Assembly (NCBI GenBank): GCA_017471245.1 | Contig: JAFUVB010000114.1 | Span: forward strand, 1 to 44,599 | Direction: 5' to 3' | DNA length: 44,599 nucleotides | Origin: Prevotella sp. | Lineage (GTDB): Bacteria > Bacteroidota > Bacteroidia > Bacteroidales > Bacteroidaceae | In this document: piece after piece, positions 40,505 through 44,501 of the stretch | How positions within the stretch are numbered: position 1 is the first letter of the stretch | Layout: every line of letters starts with the position of its first letter | The notes under the pieces: generated by a model | Told to the model about the DNA's origin: nothing | Databases searched by the model: none | Seen by the model: the letters and a program-made list of their open reading frames with translations, nothing else | Program-made: the position numbers and the translations under genes

Positions 40505-41005
40505 TTAATCCTCATGACCTAAAAGCAAACTTAGTGAATCAAGATAATCTGTATGAACCTGAACATACCTAACTTTAGAATAATCAATCTTCATAACACC
40601 ACTTTTTCGCAGTTCCGGATCGTATGAATCAAAATCAAACGAGTTTGGCTTCACATCTTTAATTCTCCCAACATATATGACATCCTCTTTATGCAAGCAT
40701 ATTGCCACCAATATTTCTTTCCTTTTTAAAAAAGAAAAGAGCAGTTCATTATCATTTAAGACAGTGTCTTTTTCTATTGGAGACAAATACTCCGTTCTGT
40801 TTTTAATAGAAAGTATTCTGTGCCGCATCGTGCTTTCATTTAATTCACGCTCATAAGCAATATACTTTTTGTTTGTAAACTGAAAGCCATCTAACACATA
40901 ATCGACAACATTAACCCTTATTAAAGACCACTCAGTCCCGTTGCCTAAAAGGATTCCTGTTACAAGTTCCTTAAAACGTCTGATTTTAAATTCTATTATT
41001 TTCAT
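40505..41005 (-). CDS. Hypothetical protein, 166 aa
   Basis: No family recognised. The N-terminal half is basic (MKIIEFKIRRFKELVTGILLG); the C-terminal half has alternating strands (EDVIYVGRIKDVKPNSFDFD) suggestive of a small beta-barrel or Sm-like fold. It is AT-rich compared with the genes upstream at 33-40 kb, consistent with transfer. It has its own promoter and stands alone. Confidence 0.65.
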   Translation of the reverse strand: MKIIEFKIRRFKELVTGILLGNGTEWSLIRVNVVDYVLDGFQFTNKKYIAYERELNESTMRHRILSIKNRTEYLSPIEKDTVLNDNELLFSFLKRKEILVAICLHKEDVIYVGRIKDVKPNSFDFDSYDPELRKSGVMKIDYSKVRYVQVHTDYLDSLSLLLGHED

Positions 41006-41097
41006 TATTAAACTACTTAATCACGGTGACTTCTACGGGTTGTTTTCTATCCTTTGAATTATCATACAGATATTTTAACCATATTGTTTCTCGATGA

Positions 41098-41129
41098 CAA
41101 AGATACTGACTTGTTCTCATACTACCAAA
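41098..41129 (-). promoter_or_regulatory. Promoter of the 166-aa gene
   Basis: Minus strand: TTTG (41129-41126), a 20-nt spacer, TATCTTTG (41105-41098). It lies inside the spurious 65-codon frame at 41013-41210. Confidence 0.7.
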
Positions 41130-41227
41130 TAATAGCCGATTAAAATGATCACAGAACCGCTCCCTGATCTTGAAGATTTTGAAGATAGTGGTTTTTAGCC
41201 AAATCTCCAAACTTTTTCAAAAAATCC

Positions 41228-41258
41228 TTTGGAATTCCCAGAAATTGTTGTACTTTTG
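41228..41258 (+). promoter_or_regulatory. Promoter of the abiF RNA and abiF gene
   Basis: TTTG 41228-41231, a 19-nt spacer and TACTTTTG 41251-41258, exact consensus. The RNA would start at about 41264-41266, at the foot of the hairpin. Confidence 0.75.
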
Positions 41259-41264
41259 CACCCA

Positions 41265-41325
41265 CGAGAACCCGCCAAGCCTCTTCACAATGCTTAAATC
41301 GGCGGGTCGTTTTATTTAATTGTGG
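41265..41325 (+). ncRNA. abiF-motif-like RNA leader with pseudoknot over the start codon
   Basis: The sequence shows a 7-bp stem ACCCGCC 41270-41276 with GGCGGGT 41301-41307, continued by AAGC 41277-41280 with GCTT 41292-41295, and a 5-nt bulge AAATC. The 11-nt loop contains CACAAT 41286-41291, which is fully complementary to ATTGTG 41319-41324. That partner includes the GTG start codon (41322-41324), so the pseudoknot would hide it. An RNA of this position and shape upstream of Abi_2/AbiF genes is known as the abiF motif. Whether it acts in cis, as a separate antitoxin RNA, or both cannot be told from sequence. Confidence 0.7.
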
Positions 41326-42215
41326 CACGATATACTAAGACATACTCATCACCAAGTCAGTTGGTAGCTTTGCTGCACTCGCGTGGATTAAGCGTCGCAG
41401 ATGTGGCAAAGGCGGAGAACTATCTTCGTCACATCGGATATTATAGGTTCAGCGCCTATCTCTATCCGCTGCTGTCGACGCCCAAGGAGAATCATGTGTT
41501 CAAACCAGGCACGGCTTTCCGCCAAGCACTGGACATGTATCGCTTCGACAGACATCTGCGACTGCTGATGTTCAATGAGATTGAGAAGATAGAGATTGCT
41601 GTCCGCAGTGCTATCGTCAATATAACAAGCCGCGAAACGGGGAATCCCTTTTGGATGACCGATCCGTCATGTTTCTATGATGCCAGTACATTTGTAAAGA
41701 CAAGGCAACTCATAGATGCGGAGTTAGCCAAGTCCCGCGAAGATTTCATTGAACATTTCCGCAATACCTATTCTGACCCTTATCCACCTTCGTGGATGCT
41801 GGCTGAGATACTTCCATTGGGTGTGCTGACAAGGATATACGACAACGTCAGGAGCAACCAGATTCGTAAGAAGATAGCACAGGAGTTCTCTTTGGGTATA
41901 CCCGTGTTCAACTCTTGGATGACAATCATCACTGTCGCCAGAAACAATTGTGGACACCATGCACGTGTATGGAACCGCACTTTTGCACTGAGGGTTTTGA
42001 CTCAGCGGCGCATGACCCGGCCATGGATAACAATTCCTGTCAACCAGAAGAAAGCCTATTTCAGCCTCTGCATCATCAAATTCTTCCTCGACATCATTTC
42101 CCCTCATAATGACATGAAGTCCAAGATTGATGCACTTCTTACCGACTACCCAGCCATTGATACCGCAGCGATGGGCTTTCCGCGTGGTTGGGAAAGTGAA
42201 CCGCTGTGGCAATGA
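41322..42215 (+). CDS. abiF: AbiF/Abi_2-family abortive infection protein (HEPN nuclease-like)
   Basis: A 297-aa protein of the Abi_2 family (AbiD/AbiF). N-terminal LRHIGYYRFSAY at 35-46 is the family hallmark. A HEPN-type RX4H motif is present at R207-H212 (RNNCGHH), so RNase activity is expected. The only plausible start is GTG at 41322: no ATG lies near in frame, and an in-frame TAA is at 41295-41297. In related systems the protein is a toxin that stops growth during phage infection, held in check by the upstream RNA. The gene is alone, without a protein antitoxin, which fits RNA control. Confidence 0.88.
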   Translation: MARYTKTYSSPSQLVALLHSRGLSVADVAKAENYLRHIGYYRFSAYLYPLLSTPKENHVFKPGTAFRQALDMYRFDRHLRLLMFNEIEKIEIAVRSAIVNITSRETGNPFWMTDPSCFYDASTFVKTRQLIDAELAKSREDFIEHFRNTYSDPYPPSWMLAEILPLGVLTRIYDNVRSNQIRKKIAQEFSLGIPVFNSWMTIITVARNNCGHHARVWNRTFALRVLTQRRMTRPWITIPVNQKKAYFSLCIIKFFLDIISPHNDMKSKIDALLTDYPAIDTAAMGFPRGWESEPLWQ

Positions 42216-42246
42216 AGCTTTGTCCCTGTGATTTTGCCCTCTATGT

Positions 42247-43104
42247 TCATAGTTCTGCTACTCTTCCTAATTTCCGTTCCCATATATAATCTTTTCCATC
42301 CTTGATAATATACAACAACATGTACAGCGTGCCGTATGGAAGAATACTCTTTATACGCGGTTCTACCAAATCTATATCACCTCTAACCAAATCATAAGCA
42401 TCGAACTCTTTATTATTATCTGTTTCTTTTTTCATTGTACCTGCAACTATATAAGATACAGCCAGCCCAGATGTGATTATGGCTTCTCTGACGATTCCTT
42501 TTCGTTTTGTGTTTAGTATGATGATGGTATCTGATGCCATGATTGCGTCTTTTTCTTTGTCTGAAACGACAGCGCTTTGTTGAATTGAGTCTTTCAATGA
42601 CGAAGAGAAGCCACGTGTGCACTGGTGGACATTGTACATGAATGAAGAGAAGTCATCTGCATGGAATCGCTGTCTATATTTTGAAGAAATCTCTTTTAAC
42701 TGATACGCCATTTCCCTAAAGTTCTTTTTTAGAATAGCCCTTTTAAAACCAAACTTCTCTCCTACTTCAATGAATACTGTTTTTTCTCCCCTGCTGCCAT
42801 TAAGTTTGAATGGCAATATTTCATAATCAGCTACCACGGCAATGCTGTCATAGTAAATGCTGTCATATACAGCGTTCTTGTCGCTGTAAATGGAATTGCT
42901 GACATCCATTATCAGGTTTTTAAGACTATCAGCAAGCCATTGTTGATTAAACTGTTTCTCCTCATCTTGGATATATGAAGTATAACGCGACGCGTGGATT
43001 TCTGTGCCATCTGGCATAGATATGATAACGGAATTGACAGATTGGGAATATAGCGGTTGTGCCGTTGTAATCAATGTAATAATAAACAATAATAAGTTCC
43101 TCAT
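42247..43104 (-). CDS. Secreted hypothetical protein, 285 aa
   Basis: An N-terminal signal peptide (hydrophobic residues 3-20, ending LYSQS) indicates export. No known domain is recognised. The middle contains helices rich in Lys and Glu (KNFREMAYQLKEISSKYRQRF), the C-terminal third has strands and hydrophobic segments (YGTLYMLLYIIKDGK). AT-rich. Convergent with abiF 31 nt away and not obviously in an operon. Confidence 0.65.
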   Translation of the reverse strand: MRNLLLFIITLITTAQPLYSQSVNSVIISMPDGTEIHASRYTSYIQDEEKQFNQQWLADSLKNLIMDVSNSIYSDKNAVYDSIYYDSIAVVADYEILPFKLNGSRGEKTVFIEVGEKFGFKRAILKKNFREMAYQLKEISSKYRQRFHADDFSSFMYNVHQCTRGFSSSLKDSIQQSAVVSDKEKDAIMASDTIIILNTKRKGIVREAIITSGLAVSYIVAGTMKKETDNNKEFDAYDLVRGDIDLVEPRIKSILPYGTLYMLLYIIKDGKDYIWERKLGRVAEL

Positions 43105-44057: not shown

Positions 44058-44501
44058 ATGACCCACAAGGCAAGTAACTTTAATCCAAACCACATCTTCG
44101 TGGACACCAACGTGCTCGTGGGTGGATACAGTGGCGATGCCCGATTCCAGAAGGATGCAGACTGTTTGCACTATCTCTACTCTCTCACGGGCAAACGGCT
44201 CTACATCTCTACACTCAGTGTGGCGCAGCTCATCTCCATGTTCCAGAAAAAGAGGAGCAACGACGAGATAGTCCGCATCGTACGCGACCTACAGCACCAC
44301 TTCACCGTCATAGACTTCACCGTCCGCGACATCGATGCCGCTCTTGTCGAGAACGGTGGCGACATTGAGGACAATGTGCAGTATGTGTTGGCACGGAAAC
44401 AAAAATGCAACGTCATCATCACAAACAACTTCAAGGACTACCGTCTCTTCTTCAACGTCCGTGTCATCAAGCCAGAGCGCGTAAGATCTATTTCTCAGTA
44501 A
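44058..44501 (+). CDS. PIN-domain toxin (VapC-like RNase)
   Basis: A 147-aa PIN protein. The first catalytic acid is D16 in FVDTNVL; a conserved ITNNFKDY is at 121-128, with acids D102, E104 and D105 before it. The usual second acid (often Glu in the ISTLSVAQL segment at about 50-59) is Q57, so metal binding may differ. In this family PIN toxins cut tRNA or rRNA. Adjacent antitoxin candidate upstream. Confidence 0.8.
   Translation: MTHKASNFNPNHIFVDTNVLVGGYSGDARFQKDADCLHYLYSLTGKRLYISTLSVAQLISMFQKKRSNDEIVRIVRDLQHHFTVIDFTVRDIDAALVENGGDIEDNVQYVLARKQKCNVIITNNFKDYRLFFNVRVIKPERVRSISQ

Follow-up and report, generated by a model that had tools for sequence, protein, structure and literature searches.

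The locus at the end of this contig is very probably a member of the known AbiF/AbiFr family of toxin-antitoxin pairs, with no lock of the RNA on the start codon. Its AbiF gene is an ordinary, apparently intact gene of a known family, preceded by a short structured RNA on the same strand. The analysed window, 44,599 nucleotides of Prevotella DNA, is the whole of one contig of the assembly (C86), and all coordinates given for the locus refer to it. We propose that one promoter would give rise to a short structured RNA, from about 41264 to 41307 plus a T tract, and that the AbiF mRNA would be made by read-through, the hairpin and the T tract attenuating transcription and keeping the RNA in excess over the mRNA. 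The abiF hairpin, with its loop closed on itself via an apical mini-stem, would bind AbiF and keep it inactive; if this balance were lost in the course of a phage infection, the toxin would be set free, and its HEPN dimer is expected to cut single-stranded RNA. Ribonuclease activity, toxicity and neutralisation by the RNA are extrapolated here from relatives, and we infer co-transcription, attenuation by the hairpin and the phage trigger.

Promoter, RNA hairpin and AbiF gene

The promoter (41228-41258, forward strand) is of the Bacteroidota type, for which we take TTTG/TAnnTTTG to be the consensus, and consists of TTTG at 41228-41231, a 19-nt gap and TACTTTTG at 41251-41258. It is the single promoter read upstream of the abiF RNA in the window. 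An initial annotation of this DNA had already recognised it, and the element is kept in relatives: among distinct loci, TAnnTTTG lies within the last 32 nt 5' of the RNA in 84 of the 88 where AbiF is intact, in 34 of 45 where the RNA is an orphan and in 33 of 38 where AbiF is a fragment. Transcription probably starts near 41264, a position suggested by the promoter spacing and by the numbering of nucleotides C32 and U38 of PbAbiFr in excerpts of PMC12737573, which would fit an offset of 7 on PbAbiF-type RNAs; the probable 5' leader of the RNA is then ACGAGAA (41264-41270, forward strand). Further 5' of the promoter, a stretch of about 107 bases (41062-41168) has copies of 87-88% identity on two other contigs of the same assembly (C97 and C108) and is possibly a remnant of a mobile element.

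The RNA itself, a predicted RNA antitoxin, occupies 41271-41307 on the forward strand, where cmscan returned the Rfam family abiF (RF03085) with 58.1 bits against a gathering cut-off of 37; it is the sole Rfam match above cut-off in the window. The expectation that an abiF RNA would be found beside the gene, and pass the Rfam model, is thus borne out by a match directly upstream of it. RNAfold, applied to 41264-41307, returned the 11-bp hairpin that had been read at 41270-41307, with A41270-U41307 as the outermost pair (z -2.32), and on the longer segment 41260-41312 (z -2.09) this outermost pair is replaced by ACGA/UCGU. Among 82 distinct motifs, 94.5% of the stem cells are paired and 9 of 12 pairs have double changes, amounting to 91 double-change cells versus 23.4 in shuffled data, with none of 500 shuffles as high. 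Between the hairpin and the start codon lies a T-rich tract (41308-41321, forward strand), a candidate weak terminator or attenuator.

Within the loop, two further pairs, U41284-A41290 and U41285-A41289, form an apical mini-stem around the loop CAC (41284-41290, forward strand). These positions fall within the 11-nt loop of the Rfam consensus, where they are unpaired, and RNAfold alone also leaves the two-pair stem out. The comparison of the 82 distinct motifs brings it out: pair U14-A20 (motif numbering) is kept in 78 of them, and pair 15/19 is U-A in 45, C-G in 35 and something else in 2.

The gene (41322-42215, forward strand, GTG start) encodes an AbiF/Abi_2 HEPN protein of 297 aa, predicted to be a ribonuclease toxin. 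It matches Abi_2 (PF07751) over the whole profile (1-184 of 184, E 2e-52), the AbiD model of PADLOC (2.5e-62) and, over residues 4-297, PbAbiF (PDB 8vz6_A, E 3.2e-124). Its catalytic motif R207-H212 reads RNNCGH, is aligned to RNSCCH of 8vz6 and occupies the place of the HEPN motif (RxxxxH) R210/H215 of PbAbiF, in the numbering used in excerpts of PMC12373285; the assignment made from the letters alone, an AbiF gene with a HEPN motif at these residues, therefore holds. We also retain GTG 41322-41324 as the correct start, rather than a codon further downstream, because ATG stands at its position in the 19 other loci that share the 14-nt spacer. About 1.8 kb downstream of AbiF, at 44058-44501, lies a gene for a PIN-domain protein of 147 aa.

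Relation to characterised systems

PbAbiF/AbiFr, from a Prevotellaceae bacterium, is reportedly the subject of a study by Zilberzwige-Tal et al. (2025). Its protein (PDB 8vz6) and that of the window are of the same family over almost their whole length and share the same HEPN residues, and its antitoxin RNA is of the same kind as ours, to judge from excerpts of PMC12373285 and PMC12737573. According to these excerpts, PbAbiF binds one AbiFr per monomer (PMC12737573) and its R210/H215 double mutant is inactive, as are mutants of the matching residues in the AbiF of Clostridioides difficile (PMC12373285). The two RNAs differ in their bulge, which is UAAAUCG in the window and CAAAUGU in the RNAs beside the AbiF proteins that look closest to PbAbiF, so that, on our mapping, the window seems to have other nucleotides in place of the reported C32 and U38.

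In the C. difficile phi027 system, the abiF RNA RCd22 likewise lies upstream of an Abi_2 HEPN toxin, with which it is co-transcribed, and it binds the toxin and neutralises it in cis and in trans (passages of PMC12373285); RCd22 has two abiF motifs and a separate terminator, whereas the window has one motif. The same passages describe AbiD1 of L. lactis as an Abi_2-type protein with a structured 5'UTR, as in the window; in that case translation is activated by a phage protein bound to the 5'UTR, and nothing points to this in the window. By analogy with these systems, the suggestion that the RNA could act as a separate antitoxin is supported, through the match to RF03085, the Abi_2 domain, the alignment to 8vz6 and the excerpts of PMC12373285 and PMC12737573. 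The gene order is that of a type III toxin-antitoxin system, with the RNA directly upstream on the same strand at a spacing of 14 nt; tandem antitoxin repeats, another trait of that type, were sought with Rfam and only one motif was found in the window, single abiF motifs being present at many other loci examined as well. The link of the AbiF family to Cas13, which the initial annotation had brought up, is supported by the excerpts of both papers. The locus itself does not qualify as Cas13: there is one Abi_2 domain in the 297-aa protein, and the window's Rfam matches include no CRISPR family.

The RNA and the start codon

The most specific proposal of the initial annotation was a pseudoknot in which loop segment CACAAT (41286-41291) pairs with ATTGTG (41319-41324) and, by covering the GTG start codon, blocks AbiF translation in cis. 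The complementarity is indeed perfect over six nucleotides, with GTG 41322-41324 inside the partner, and of the 26 other loci whose protein is at least 73% identical, 22 keep 4 or 5 of the six pairs when G-U is counted, which we ascribe to the resemblance of AUG and an A/U-rich spacer to the partner. We nevertheless consider such a lock highly unlikely, and have rejected it, as the pairing is neither conserved nor covarying in relatives, the outcome that the annotation itself had named as a refutation. The comparison covered 117 distinct loci, drawn from 133 RNA sites with an AbiF-like ORF after removal of duplicates, of matches beginning beyond query residue 25 and of sites with no assignable start or with a start at less than 5 nt. 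All six positions are paired in the window only. Start codons are ATG in 114 loci, TTG in 2 and GTG in 1, so the key C-G pair is absent from those 114, a count that leans upward because the choice of start favoured ATG through a 6-nt penalty on GTG and TTG. A perfect hexamer between loop and start region, G-U allowed, occurs in 5.1% of the loci (6/117) versus 4.6% after each loop has been combined with the start region of another locus, and 97 of 200 shuffles were as high as the real pairing; the hairpin is far above chance, whereas the six-base complementarity is at chance level. Among the 20 loci with the same 14-nt spacer (17 distinct), the central pair, which would join C18 to the first nucleotide of the start codon, cannot form in 16 of the 17, and no loop/start pair is changed on both sides. 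Covariation, which had been put forward as a check, was found for the stem and not for the pseudoknot. The spacer between RNA and start is variable too, being 11-22 nt in 98 of the 117 loci and longer in the rest (four are tandem-distal RNAs with spacers of 154-155 nt), and loop bases A19 and A20, which the pseudoknot needs, are taken by the covarying apical mini-stem. Finally, the window's 25-nt RNA core was sought in 398 genomes, 34 of which had a match, and ATTGTG was found within 40 nt downstream in none of the 36 other distinct sites with at most one mismatch from it (37 sites with the window, one of them only 25 nt long). Given pairing in the window alone and matches elsewhere at shuffle level, the complementarity looks like a coincidence that arose when the usual ATG was changed to GTG.

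A second way of hiding the start codon is suggested by the RNAfold minimum-energy structure of 41260-41345, in which the 5' leader at 41262-41267 (CCACGA) pairs with 41320-41325 (UUGUGG). We hold this to be equally improbable and rejected it for want of conservation: the mean number of pairs with the locus's own partner is 3.14 of 6, versus 3.09 with shuffled partners, 74 of 300 shuffles being as high, and transcription from the probable start near 41264 would leave four weak pairs.

Distribution, subtypes and orphan RNAs in bacteria

Within the genus, 45 of 150 genomes have an abiF RNA, as do 88 of 251 in the family sample and 6 of 395 in the phylum sample. The 69 named loci belong mostly to uncultured Prevotella, Prevotellaceae, Bacteroidaceae or Bacteroidales, many of them from ruminants. 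The genome of the window alone has three abiF RNAs of three subtypes, with an open AbiF frame beside those on C86 and C49 and an internal stop in the frame on C64; on C62 there is a fourth Abi_2 match, a weak one and with no match to abiF RNA. A search for plasmid relatives of the window DNA gave one match, of 65% over 37% of the query, in Phocaeicola (OY726013).

The subtype of the RNA, defined by its bulge, follows the clade of the protein. On the AbiF protein tree (87 rows, three of which are the upstream RNA of a tandem pair) it changes 9 times versus a shuffled mean of 44.4, a statistic inflated by near-copies. This fits cognate RNA-protein pairs, as far as the comparison of sequences goes. 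In five loci (L025, L039, L084, L089 and L114) an RNA of the window's subtype (UAAAUCG) stands in tandem in front of a second RNA, and in all but L025 that second RNA carries the bulge CAAAUGU and stands at the head of an AbiF gene; by eye, several of these UAAAUCG RNAs have no promoter of their own and apparently lie just behind the end of an ORF. Two single loci deserve mention. At L069 (678-744), an abiF RNA carries a 30-nt insertion in its loop and has no AbiF blast match downstream. In a Pseudomonadaceae plasmid (L381, 427-5045), AbiF and its RNA are located between genes for a DNA methyltransferase and a restriction endonuclease subunit S, an order that resembles a type I restriction-modification operon.

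In a convenience set of 187 distinct bacterial RNA sites, which are not independent, 88 have an AbiF ORF of at least 250 aa downstream, 39 a fragment, and 45 no detectable AbiF within 1.4 kb downstream, while 15 near a contig end were not judged. The orphan share is not an unbiased rate, because decayed RNAs would be missed, and a very different AbiF could be missed as well, since the profile used was built from this group; RNA sites with more than 3 substitutions from the search pattern were dropped from the orphan, promoter and T-tract counts. Two of the 45 orphans (L033 and L034) have an AbiF within 1.5 kb upstream.

Hairpin and T tract as a possible attenuator

The hairpin and the T tract may together act as a transcription attenuator. 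In two distant AbiF loci, the viral contig L304 and plasmid CP113227, T8 and TTTTTC stand directly 3' of the hairpin, T8 being right behind that of the plasmid; the tract of the window, which begins two bases after the motif, is weaker than either. A scan of 41000-42400 for consensus terminators found none, its loop limit of 3-8 excluding this hairpin. Between +3 and +11, the T profile hardly differs among 88 loci with an intact AbiF, 45 orphans and 39 fragments; since some of the orphan RNAs still precede a few AbiF codons, inheritance rather than selection may account for their T tract.

A rival reading makes the hairpin mainly an attenuator of AbiF transcription and denies the RNA of this group a role as antitoxin in trans. 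A hairpin with a T tract behind it would agree with this, as would the terminator after RCd22, which limits abiF transcription in C. difficile (excerpts of PMC12373285). We regard it as very unlikely: it would hardly explain RNAs that keep the fold, and mostly the promoter, with no AbiF downstream (45 of 187), nor the viral copies without AbiF described below; moreover, loop and bulge are conserved beyond the needs of a terminator, and the RNA subtype tracks the protein clade. An AbiF/AbiFr pair in which the RNA is the antitoxin remains our preferred reading.

abiF RNAs in phages and other viral records

A blastn search for phage records with an abiF RNA returned 80 records at E values up to 10, the weakest of which are surely due to chance; 31 cover at least 80% of the query, and 18 among the best 60 of the 80 were examined. 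Fourteen of the 18 pass the RF03085 cut-off (L363, L372, L377 and L378 fail), and no Abi_2 match was found in any of the 18. In IMG/VR, whose records may be fragments, 80 loci were examined out of 94 matching stretches, and the 20 structure-intact loci tested with Rfam, chosen by hand, all pass the cut-off. Taken together, Abi_2 is present in 1 of these 98 viral records. A structure-intact abiF RNA is present in 74 records (78 matches), 73 of them without an Abi_2 match, once L338, L341 and L347, duplicates of named phages, are excluded; the 78 matches are not independent, because further near-identical records remain. Of 101 viral matches, 20 had been dropped: 18 with at most two outer pairs, many of them matching nothing beyond the 24-nt core and perhaps due to chance or to coding sequence, and also L317 and L363, which just miss the structure rule.

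The viral RNAs have 162 double-change cells versus 48.5 in shuffled data, for the whole alignment as fitted to the model. The IMG/VR search pattern fixed most letters of motif positions 9-29, which leaves the outer stem and the phase of pair 15/19 as the informative parts of that set. Among 69 distinct viral copies, outer pair 4/33 is G-C in 27, C-G in 18, U-A in 9 and A-U in 5, and pair 15/19 is C-G in 41, U-A in 28 and nothing else, a pairing that was not forced, because the pattern allowed C-A and U-G there. These compensatory changes suggest that the fold is under selection in records that show no AbiF gene.

A tRNA is found no more than 20 nt away from 21 of the 78 structure-intact matches, in every case on the same strand; random placement gives 1.6 (sd 1.2, maximum 6 in 500 runs). 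Among these 21, the nearest tRNA is on the 3' side in 11 and on the 5' side in 10, so release of the phage RNA by RNase P cutting at a 3' tRNA is not supported as a rule. On three viral contigs the abiF RNA stands 5 nt upstream of a permuted tmRNA (L272, 7820-8128; L322, 2346-2654; L335, 5300-5618), and in the Aeromonas T7-like phages examined it is located between the connector and capsid assembly genes. The contig pairs L313/L315 and L331/L339 seem to carry, near tRNA genes, two RNAs in tandem with different cores (L313, 8195-8238 and 8266-8310; L315, 3450-3493 and 3521-3565; L331, 586-630 and 671-715; L339, 4408-4452 and 4493-4537); one RNA of each pair is weak, with 28-34 bits in the covariance model built here, and the second RNAs of L313, L315 and L331 are below the Rfam cut-off. 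The faecal phage scaffold MT836731 (L363, a 16.8-kb record) has an abiF-like RNA at 1500-1544, below the Rfam cut-off and with 41.8 bits in our covariance model, and a DUF3800-VIII RNA at 1852-1915; neither an Abi_2 nor a DUF3800 protein was found in the record.

Two phage RNAs resemble, at the level of their letters, bacterial-type cognate RNAs. The RNA of LittleE and the one next to AbiF on viral contig L304 do not differ over 42 nt, and the RNA of Aeromonas phage PZL-Ah8 has 88.9% identity over 45 nt to the RNA beside an Abi family gene on plasmid CP113227. Searches for the LittleE-type RNA in plasmids and for the Aeromonas phage RNA in E. coli genomes gave no match, and a search for the Acj61 RNA in plasmids gave one, in Phocaeicola, and none in Acinetobacter.

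Possible role of the phage RNAs and implications

Taking these data jointly, we somewhat favour the reading that abiF RNAs are widespread where AbiF is absent, above all in phages, and are antitoxin mimics that would disarm the AbiF of the host, the phages lodging them in tRNA arrays, by the phage tmRNA or between late genes. Tandem RNAs of different subtypes would fit a subtype-specific neutralisation of several AbiF clades, and bacterial orphans, including the copies of the window's subtype that stand before another AbiF locus, could be anti-addiction or cross-neutralising antitoxins. It is possible that the phage RNA serves a role unrelated to AbiF. As excerpts of two papers describe, phage RNA mimicry as such is already known: the pseudo-ToxI of phiTE (PMC3475682) and RNA anti-CRISPRs (PMC10651486) are phage RNAs that copy the RNA partner of a defence protein, as we propose for the phage abiF RNAs; they act on other defence systems and their function was shown by experiment, whereas the phage abiF RNAs are known from sequence. 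An abiF sRNA has been reported in cyanophage S-CREM1, with no anti-defence reading in the passages of PMC9964418 consulted, and a review calls its role unconfirmed (excerpt of PMC12197685). Among the papers listed in our literature searches, and going by titles, abstract openings and passages, we found no proposal of phage abiF RNAs as AbiF inhibitors, Weinberg et al. 2017 and Zilberzwige-Tal et al. 2025 lying outside this reading. Cas13a cleaves tRNA anticodons, as stated in passages of PMC11042736 and PMC12373285, which makes the tRNA-array setting of the phage RNAs suggestive.

With this locus the AbiF family gains a clean member from the Prevotella group, and the start-codon lock, attractive as an idea of its regulation, is set aside as wrong. 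The model of the RNA is refined by a two-pair apical stem, for which compensatory changes speak both in bacterial copies and, independently listed, in viral ones. The parts most worth following are this apical mini-stem and the solitary viral RNAs. If the phage RNAs are indeed mimics, the RNA mimicry seen with phiTE and the RNA anti-CRISPRs would extend to a family reported to be ancestral to Cas13, and the presence of a hairpin that is not a tRNA in some phage tRNA clusters would be explained.
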